DNA of 64,000 nt. Source: Agelas oroides. Its lineage: Eukaryota > Porifera > Demospongiae > Agelasida > Agelasidae. The stretch is taken from NCBI GenBank assembly GCA_949130485.1, contig OX422198.1, forward strand, positions 1,615,262-1,679,261. Reading direction: 5' to 3'. This document shows, piece by piece, positions 39 to 18,945 of the stretch. Numbering within the stretch: position 1 is the stretch's first letter; each line of letters starts with the position of its first letter. Below the pieces are notes generated by a model that was given only the letters and a program-made list of their open reading frames with translations, did no database searches and was not told the origin of the DNA. A program made the position numbers and the translations under genes.

Positions 39-3000
39 TTAGTTGTAATACAAAAGGTGTGTATCTGCAGCAAGGTTTCCTTTATTTGTATCATTGAGAA
101 CCAGGTAACCACCAACTGCCTCTAGCATGGTGGCAGTAGTGGCAACCAGCTCACTGAAATGAGGTCTCTCCTCAGGCTGTTCCTCCCAGCATTGTAGCAG
201 CAGTGAATAGCTACATGGAATGTGAGAAAATCAAAACTAGATGAAAAGTAGTTCTTGGTGGTCAGATCATTATAATTATGATGCGTACATGCCAAATTTT
301 GAATGTGCTTGCTATTCCTTTGTAAGTGTGACACCCATGCATCCAGGGCAAGCACATTCAAAAAATGTATGTGTATGCAAGAACAGGATGTCTCATGCAT
401 GCAGTTAAGGGTACAACTACAAGCACAGACCAAGTACCCTCTACCCTAGCATTCAATCAGCCTTTTACACCAAAATTCACACCAAAATTCAAGCTCTGCT
501 GTTTTATAACTTATCTAATGAATAAATAAATCTCACATGTTCTGTCTCTTTCACAGTAATCTCCTAATTAAGCCTGTGCCTTGCTGTAGCTTGAGTGCAT
601 GCCTTCATGTATTGTAATGATTGACTACCGTAGACTGGGAAATTTTCACGTTAAAAATAATTCGCGTAAAAAATGTTCGTGTTGATAAATTTTCGCGGTT
701 CGTTCTATCCGCGAAATGTTTCTAACGGTTGACGGTTACATAATGGACGAGCGCCTGGAGTGTTCCTACCGTTTAGTCTACTACCAGGTATCGGGAGAGC
801 CAGCTATCACTGGTTTTAACGCTGTGGCTGTCAGGAGTAGTCATCGATCGGACATTTACCTCGGGAGGTGTGGACGTGAGCGTGCACGCTTATTTGTTTG
901 TTAAATTTCGCTGTTAAAATAATTTCGCGGTTGAGACCAACCGCGAAATTATTTTAACAGCGAAATTTTCCTGATCTACGGAATATATGCTTGTGACAGC
1001 ATACGATACAACATTGAGATCCCCAGCCAGGATTCGAAACTGGGTCTTCTAAATGCTCTTACCACTGAGTCATTGGAGCCCTGGTATTGCAGCAGAGAAT
1101 AGAATAAATAAGTAAGTCTTTTCATCTAATATCGGTTTCAGTCCAAACATTTCTAGGCCAGCTAAGTGATACAAACTCACATTTCATTTGTGCAAGCCAA
1201 ATTTGAAGGTTTGTTGAGTCGCTCTCCATCACGAAGAAACTGAAGCAGTGCCATTGGACTAATTCCTCCATAGGGTACCATTCCTCCACTGAACACCTCC
1301 CAGCCTGTGACTCCAAATGACCACTGCATTTAAAGGGGAGAATAATCAAATTACTGTGCTACTTTCATGAAAGTTTCGTATTGGGCCTTCATTTGCTTAA
1401 ATACATATGTATCAAAGGGGCATTACTTTGTGCGATATGACATTGTATAGTATGTTATACCAGTAAGACGTTTCCCCCTAGGTAGCAGTATGCAAATCAG
1501 CACACTGCATGCACACTTGCACTCTTGGCAGTAAAGTTCACTTTACACTTCACCACACTATAATGATATACCTTATTCAGTTAGTATCTCTGAACTTACC
1601 ACATCACTCTTCTCAGTGAAAATGCCATCCTGAGTGCTCTCTGGTGACATCCACCTTACAGGGAGCTTCACATTTGTATCACCCTTCTTCCAACGGTAGT
1701 AATTTGTGGTATAAATATCCTCAGCCAGGCCAAAATCAGCCACTTTGATCACTCCATTGGCATCAATCCTGCATGATGTAATATGGTTGTAAACTCAGTA
1801 TGTTTTACGCAGCAATTTAGTGACATTGTGCAAGGAACAGTACTATTTGTGTAGGCTTTTAGCAAAGTTTATATTCACTGTAGTAACAAATTTGTACAAC
1901 CAGCTACAAACATACATGCAGTTTCTTGCAGCAAGGTCCCTGTGTACAACTTTCTGATCAGTTAAGTACTCCATTCCCTTGGCAATTTGCAGGCACATGT
2001 CCAGAAGAACTGATTGAGCATGAGAAATCTATAGTATATAACAAAATGATGGTGGTTATTATGGAGCACACGGTGTACATGACTTAAGTAGTAGTGCATG
2101 AAATGTACATACCATGCTCCCCTCTGCCTCTCCATCCAGCATTAAACTCTTTCTTTCCCTCCTGAGATAGTCAAGTGTGCTGCCATTGGCCATGAATGGC
2201 ATCACTACAGCTGGTCCACCGCAGAAATTCTCACACACTCCAATAAGAGACATCACATTGGGATGCTTAAAAGACTGCATCTTTAAGACCTCTTCTTTAA
2301 GGATGTGAATATCATTTGGAGTGACCACATCTGAATGAATGATTCAACTTTGTGTCAGTTAACAAAACTAGGGTACATGCATGCCGAAAGCCACATACAA
2401 AGTAGAGCCACTATTTTGTTATGAAGTAAATTGATTGGGGCAGACAGTCAGTGACAGACTGTAATACCTGACAGTCCTTAAACATTATATATCTGTTAAA
2501 GGTCTTCATGGAATGCCAGTGTTTGTGCAAGCCTTCCTTGTATACTGTACATAGGCACTAGTCATGAACTACATTCTGCATACTCTTCTGTGAGTATTGT
2601 TGGTTGCCCACCACTGGAAGAGGAGAGCCCTGCACAAACACATACAGACAAATTGCGGCCTCTCTCTGAACACTATTTGGTTGCCTTTCTAAATCCAGAT
2701 ACCTGACGCTTTTATTTTTCCCGCTACATAGCTCTATTGTACATTACTAGTTACTTCATTTAATTCCAGTTCTTTCCTCTTGTGTCGGTTGAGCTGAAGG
2801 TCTACAGACCTAAAAATCTTCTAAATCTGTGATTTCTTGCTACTGTCAAGCTAATAGATTTTGAAGCTTACATGGCTATATTATATAATGGATAATAGTT
2901 GTGATAGCCTACTTTGAAAAATGTATAGTACCTTTCATTGTTTTGATGGCAACAACTTCAGCTTTAGCACTCTTATTCCACTTCAGGTGAGCCTTGAATA

Positions 3001-18945: not shown

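Follow-up and report, generated by a model that had tools for sequence, protein, structure and literature searches.

A tyrosine kinase gene in the sponge Agelas oroides with a predicted ectodomain of eight SRCR and three Ig-like domains and an apparent mosaic origin

The window considered here is a 64,000-nucleotide stretch of genomic DNA from the sponge Agelas oroides (C16:1615262-1679261, in a 259.3-Mb assembly of 141 contigs). One end of it is occupied by a gene on the minus strand, read from 18945 to 39. When three frames were read and exons were joined at splice sites, 28 exons gave 4953 bases, that is, 1650 codons and one terminal stop. The predicted product consists of a signal peptide, eight scavenger receptor cysteine-rich (SRCR) domains, three immunoglobulin (Ig)-like domains, one transmembrane (TM) helix, a basic juxtamembrane segment, a tyrosine kinase, and a short tail. 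An earlier sequence-only reading had proposed this gene, and its 28 exons, its span of 39-18945, its intron phases, its 1650 codons, and its domain order were all reproduced by the exon joining. Among the 27 introns, 24 are of the GT-AG type and three are GC-AG, the latter at a homologous position within SRCR2, SRCR4, and SRCR6 (donors after 16778, 13523, and 11583). The first intron is in phase 0, those from the first half of SRCR1 to the third kinase exon (K3) are all in phase 1, and the last four are in phases 0, 2, 0, and 2. Phase-1 introns across the ectodomain, the TM exon, and K1-K2 make each domain a symmetric unit that can be shuffled.

Pfam was run on the joined translation, a check of the kind suggested along with the gene model, and all three kinds of domain were matched. 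SRCR is found in eight stretches (E 6.1e-191; 620.6 bits against a cut-off of 26.1), PK_Tyr_Ser-Thr has an E-value of 2.6e-81, and Ig_3 and I-set are each found in two stretches. With SRCR domains above the Pfam cut-off the protein belongs to the SRCR superfamily. It also has the architecture of a receptor tyrosine kinase (RTK), with an extracellular part, a single TM helix as judged from sequence, and a cytoplasmic tyrosine kinase that carries the catalytic motifs. Eleven models of NCBIfam, a prokaryote library, were matched, each far below its own cut-off. Chance joining of unrelated open reading frames is ruled out by the Pfam scores, the intron phases, and the presence of homologous exons elsewhere in the genome.

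Elsewhere in the window, on the plus strand, positions 34328-36705 hold two long open reading frames of a membrane-type protein. Chlam_PMP repeats are matched in the first (Pfam 3.6e-8), the second stays below the cut-off, and an 81-bp tandem repeat at 35108-35314 is internal to them. The second frame ends at the start of a tandem array that is strand-skewed and built from units of the GTAGAGCC type; this array fills 36705-64000 and continues to the right. It is contiguous through C16:1709000, and all six 1-kb samples taken as far as C16:1880000 contain it, which would make it possibly 228 kb long or more.

In the joined model, exon 1 (18850..18945, minus strand like all those that follow) carries the start codon, a signal-peptide-like segment seen in the hydrophobicity scan, and the start of SRCR1. 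Exons 2 to 17 then encode the SRCR domains, each split into a first and a second half: SRCR1 at 17622..17751 and 17100..17261 (both also seen with Pfam), SRCR2 at 16778..16969 and 16001..16171, SRCR3 at 15469..15627 and 15086..15247, SRCR4 at 13523..13714 and 13281..13448, SRCR5 at 12767..12925 and 12389..12550, SRCR6 at 11583..11774 and 11340..11510, SRCR7 at 9606..9776 and 9100..9261, and SRCR8 at 7814..7993 and 7263..7427. The GC donors belong to the first-half exons of SRCR2, SRCR4, and SRCR6. Comparison of the domains with one another resolves them into four A-B pairs, with SRCR1, 3, 5, and 7 of the A-type, SRCR2, 4, and 6 of the B-type, and SRCR8 diverged, though nearer to the B-type. 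Identity is 75-88% among the A-type domains and 84-90% among the B-type, against 37-42% between the types; SRCR8 is 48-50% identical to the B-type and 42-43% to the A-type. Because identity within each type is so high, the pairs 1/2, 3/4, and 5/6 look like fairly recent duplications. All 12 within-type pairs of SRCR copies have a dN/dS of 0.18-0.36, although three of these, those with SRCR8, have dS above 2 and are hence saturated.

SRCR domains of group A have six conserved cysteines and are split across two exons, and those of group B have eight cysteines in set positions and one exon per domain. Each domain of the window gene has eight cysteines by count, six of them core cysteines and the others an extra pair, located N-terminally and within GRVE(V/I)C. 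A split over two exons and six core cysteines would fit group A, but the extra pair is present too. Membership in group B, which the available text of one source characterizes by four disulphides (PMC7043408), is ruled out by the placement of that pair and by the two exons per domain.

In SALSA/DMBT1, the residues D1019, D1020, D1058, D1059, N1081, and E1086 bind the exposed cations, and D1023 and D1026 lie at a buried cation site, according to the accessible part of the same source (PMC7043408). Its numbering was mapped onto the window gene by the residue spacing given there (PMC7043408, in part) and by an alignment to CD163, whose SRCRs match the A-type domain over its full length, as with the SRCR5 exon at 12767..12925. 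The A-type domains read CDDFWDN(K/R)DA and keep the equivalents of D1019, D1020, D1023, and D1026. By this mapping, at the other positions D1059 is retained as D, D1058 is replaced by N, N1081 by S, and E1086 by Q (by G in SRCR7). The mapping also leans on the general form of the cation-site motif. In the B-type SRCR2, 4, and 6 the DD pair is replaced, and SRCR8 retains one of the two. Retention of the acidic motif in SRCR1, 3, 5, and 7 suggests that each chain may carry four cation-competent SRCRs; the substitutions at SALSA cation positions, found even in the A-type domains, would count against cation binding.

The Ig-like domains have one exon each in the joined model: Ig1 at 5585..5914 (exon 18), Ig2 at 4907..5245 (exon 19), and Ig3 at 4541..4837 (exon 20). 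In an exon-by-exon Pfam scan, Ig3 is above the cut-off (Ig_3, 2.6e-8), Ig1 is slightly below it (I-set, 8.8e-5; 22.9 against 23.7 bits), and Ig2, which lacks the canonical B/F-strand cysteine pair, is well short (Ig_3, 4.2e-4; 21.2 against 30 bits). Each of the three was found by genome search to have homologous exons elsewhere. Given these scores and homologues, the ectodomain can fairly be called one of eight SRCR and three Ig domains, as had been proposed, with the qualification that Ig2 is degenerate.

Exon 21 (3588..3788) encodes the TM helix and the basic juxtamembrane segment and ends in a GTTTGG donor. The kinase follows in seven exons. K1 (exon 22, 3087..3179) runs from the juxtamembrane segment to the first glycine of the P-loop, K2 (exon 23, 2932..3015, also matched by Pfam) holds the P-loop and the catalytic lysine, K3 (exon 24, 2113..2330) the alpha-C glutamate and the hinge, K4 (exon 25, 1916..2028) the HRDLAARN catalytic loop, K5 (exon 26, 1600..1768) DFG and the DIYTTNYYR activation loop, K6 (exon 27, 1181..1323) the DVWSFG region, and K7 (exon 28, 39..210) the end of the C-lobe and the short tail, which ends in LLYYN and the stop. 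The claim that every catalytic motif is intact was borne out when GQGEFG, VAIK, the alpha-C glutamate, HRDLAARN, DFG, DVWSFG, and the late arginine were all located in the translation. A paralog on C3 has matching exon boundaries for TM, K1, K2, and K3, including the unusual GTTTGG donor. Against this paralog the TM exon is close to neutral (dN 0.278, dS 0.313), and K1-K3 give dN of 0.142-0.255 and dS of 0.304-0.602, with dN/dS of 0.39-0.50.

Assignment of the kinase to a family was tried through PDB sequence matches. The best 60 of 2333 comprise FGFR2, FGFR3, MET, and one EGFR chain, a tandem EGFR-kinase chain that is scored twice at the top, followed by FGFR2, FGFR3, and MET; this is not decisive. 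Identity to relatives varies along the kinase. The activation-loop exon (1600-1768) is 88-90% identical to C3:1524786-1524962 and C3:1555229-1555405, and the other kinase exons of the same C3 paralogs are at 65-74% among the matches listed. The high value may be a trace of gene conversion or of stronger constraint.

Relatives of each block were sought in the same genome, with scores for 121 of 973 first-look candidates for the kinase, 150 of 3375 for the SRCRs, and all 70 for the Ig-TM part. The nearest SRCR and kinase relatives are therefore those among the matches listed, and closer ones are possible. By E-value, the best of the 121 scored kinase candidates (of 973) are uninterrupted kinase frames on C23, C15, C17, and others, with 31-42% identity. 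By identity, the nearest kinases among the matches listed lie at C3:1524187-1526948, C3:1553916-1556582, and C1:10862600-10865632 (65-90% per exon), and the nearest TM segments stand beside them on C3 and at C1:10.86 Mb (55-64%). The nearest SRCRs outside the gene, among the matches listed, are at C16:3942680-3967268 (53-89%), and the nearest Ig homologues are at C1:784193-956700 (46-68%). That the SRCR, Ig, and TM-kinase blocks are nearest to three different places is the signature of a mosaic gene. The window gene thus looks like a three-part mosaic, and these comparisons make exon shuffling, by way of its phase-1 introns, the probable origin.

The relatives themselves are organized differently from the window gene. 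The kinases at C3:1524187-1527407, C3:1553916-1556582, and C1:10861436-10865632 have the closest TM-juxtamembrane-kinase segments by identity among the matches listed, which place no SRCR or Ig relative beside them. In the first C3 copy, the one whose splice sites match from TM to K3, the ectodomain is largely masked, and its visible part matches Furin-like with an E-value of 0.017, under the cut-off. The C1:784193-956700 cluster, which has homologues of Ig1-Ig3, is IgSF receptor-like and contains many adjoining pairs of Ig2-Ig3 homologues within about 170 kb. No kinase was seen in the one member examined, at C1:857501-862500. Its additional Ig is an I-set domain (Pfam 1.2e-14), followed by a TM and a predicted tail that is rich in tyrosines and contains the repeats YERLDEYEPADDRSYERL, which fit the ITAM spacing YxxL-x10-YxxL. 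The cluster is possibly comparable to cnidarian allorecognition clusters.

A dense SRCR array also lies on the same contig, about 42-89 kb to the left of the window. It consists of 112 half-domain pieces on the minus strand (C16:1526033-1572980), with no kinase exon match in the 90 kb examined there. As the closest SRCR source it was rejected, its identity being at most 64% (66% at one place), whereas the SRCRs at C16:3.94-3.97 Mb reach 89%.

The pairing of SRCRs with a kinase recurs elsewhere in the genome. At C5:10735001-10875000 there is a tandem cluster in which each of the eight kinase-exon sets is preceded, 5' and on the same strand, by SRCR exons, which argues that the SRCR-kinase order is not a chance neighbourhood. 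Like the window gene, the cluster genes combine an SRCR ectodomain, a TM, and a kinase with the matching exon set K2-K7, the kinase exons being 38-84% identical by tblastn. They differ in that a Frizzled-like (Fz) domain takes the place of the three Igs in seven of the eight sets (SRCRn-Fz-TM-TK), the remaining set being SRCRn-TM-TK. The C5 genes are known here as exon sets, and the Fz domain was seen with Pfam on one copy at 32.5 bits, against a cut-off of 32.1. The window gene has no Fz between its SRCRs and its TM: neither the first 19.5 kb of the window nor the joined protein, when scanned with Pfam, gave an Fz match. It also stands alone in the stretch examined, whereas the C5 kinases are several genes in tandem, and beyond the cluster kinase matches continue to C5:10543980 and SRCR matches to C5:10605696.

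Taken together, we consider it fairly probable that the locus is a single gene for a membrane RTK that arose by exon shuffling, binds its ligands multivalently through cation-dependent SRCR domains, and is activated by clustering. In this proposal the A-type SRCRs 1, 3, 5, and 7 would bind repetitive anionic ligands through Ca2+ or Mg2+, as their acidic motif suggests. Several sites on one chain would allow multivalent binding, so a polyvalent ligand, such as a microbial surface, a matrix polymer, or another cell, could cluster the receptors, with the Ig domains serving as a stalk or as contact modules. The clustered kinases would then trans-phosphorylate the YxxxYY activation loop, DIYTTNYYR, which we take to follow the pattern of insulin-receptor-type loops. 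At the C terminus, LLYYN is presumably a pYxN docking site of the Grb2 type, and a phosphorylated pYYN there could recruit a Grb2-type adaptor.

What the receptor might bind can be approached from two sides. Coupling to microbial or allorecognition ligands would be at most a plausible guess, based on the cation-site motif in SRCR1, 3, 5, and 7 and on the relation between the Ig exons and the IgSF cluster; as a sign of microbial pattern recognition, the motif in four of the eight SRCRs would be a hint only. Sponge tandem SRCRs and extensive SRCR expansion are usually tied to microbial recognition in the accessible portions of two studies (PMC4772301, PMC10855680), neither of which is decisive. 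A real RTK whose ligands are endogenous, drawn from matrix, aggregation factors, cell contact, or tissue homeostasis in place of microbes or non-self, is a serious contender, to which we would give somewhat less than an even chance. With a dN/dS well below 1 between SRCR copies, diversifying selection is not apparent at this coarse level. The ligands known for RTKs are mostly endogenous, which also counts for this alternative. Besides microbes, the ligands of SRCR domains include matrix and host molecules, by the available text of PMC7043408.

Whether the exons form one gene bears on all of this. Two neighbouring genes could occupy the locus, one for a secreted eight-SRCR protein ending in the intron after SRCR8 and the other a separate Ig-TM-kinase gene, or the split could fall between Ig3 and TM. 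Read-through of the SRCR8 donor does reach a stop within a few codons, and an AATAAA stands at 7094 in the SRCR8-Ig1 intron, but in a crude hydrophobicity scan this intron has no signal-peptide-like start and the open frame that runs into the Ig1 exon contains no methionine. The same scan finds a hydrophobic ATG start at 4492 in the Ig3-TM intron; it also finds three hydrophobic ATGs in the first intron, and the true start barely reaches its threshold. The clusters that hold the closest SRCR and Ig relatives show no kinase among the matches listed, the one Ig-cluster gene examined has no kinase match in roughly 3.7 kb after its TM, and adjacent separate genes would likewise give three modules with three different nearest relatives. 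On the other side, the joining introns are all in phase 1 and on one strand, and the SRCR-TM-kinase order recurs in all eight C5 kinase sets examined. On balance we regard two genes as improbable. An unexpressed or decaying copy is more improbable still: the near-neutral TM exon against the C3 paralog would fit it, but one open frame runs over 28 exons with all catalytic motifs, the splice sites match the paralog, and the SRCR-copy dN/dS argues against a decayed locus.

A single membrane RTK gene of this kind has a background in the sponge literature, as far as the accessible texts go. SRCR domains are abundant in sponges, with more than 600 SRCRs in Halichondria panicea (PMC8242945) and 2166 SRCR-like domains in Stylissa carteri (PMC4772301). 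A survey of 29 species counted 14 PK_Tyr_Ser-Thr domains in SRCR proteins of Amphimedon queenslandica (PMC10855680), and in two sponge transcriptomes SRCR genes are sometimes combined with protein kinases (PMC6208332). The window gene likewise has SRCR and PK_Tyr_Ser-Thr in one predicted protein, the combination that marks the sponge SRCR tyrosine kinases of that survey, with which it can be compared here by domain count (PMC10855680). The accessible text of PMC8662651 makes no mention of SRCR. No published description of an SRCR x8-Ig x3-TM-TK protein was found in the literature searched on SRCR and kinase, which was taken without supplements and most subscription papers. The layout had been called unusual from the sequence alone, and this stands for the exact arrangement, which has no published match in that literature, but not for the union of SRCR with tyrosine kinase, which recurs (PMC10855680, PMC6208332, both in part, and the C5 cluster). 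This union is already on record in sponges, and the SRCR x8-Ig x3 layout looks like an undescribed variant of it. What is new is the apparent mosaic origin, and the variant gains interest from the SRCR-Fz kinases in tandem on C5 and from the relation of its Ig block to the IgSF cluster. With its apparent mosaic origin, the gene is also a tractable example of how RTK ectodomains may be swapped through phase-1 exons.

A broader and more tentative idea, which we would still call unlikely, is that sponges possess a modular class of innate receptors in which SRCR arrays were shuffled onto different RTK cores, such that scavenger and IgSF recognition and tyrosine phosphorylation are exchangeable within one self/non-self system. 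The Fz-linked arrays would be those of the tandem C5 cluster and the Ig-linked array that of the window gene, and the Ig block shared with the C1 IgSF cluster, where an ITAM-like tail is seen in one member, would be part of the same system.

Among known systems, the window gene resembles two groups in different parts of its protein. CD163/M130 and DMBT1/SALSA also have tandem SRCR arrays, and the A-type domain matches both by sequence. The domains of the window gene differ from theirs in having two exons each and, with eight cysteines by count, in an extra pair placed unlike that of group B. To our knowledge neither CD163/M130 nor DMBT1/SALSA carries a kinase. With RTKs of the MuSK/ROR and FGFR/InsR/MET types the window gene has its kinase core in common, and some of these have Ig or Ig and Fz ectodomains; none of them is known to carry an SRCR array. 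In animals, pattern-recognition receptors mostly lack a kinase of their own and depend on adaptors or partner kinases for signalling. A scavenger array fused to an RTK, in a genome that holds further SRCR kinases, would make it possible to test directly whether microbes or neighbours were read straight into tyrosine phosphorylation by early animals.
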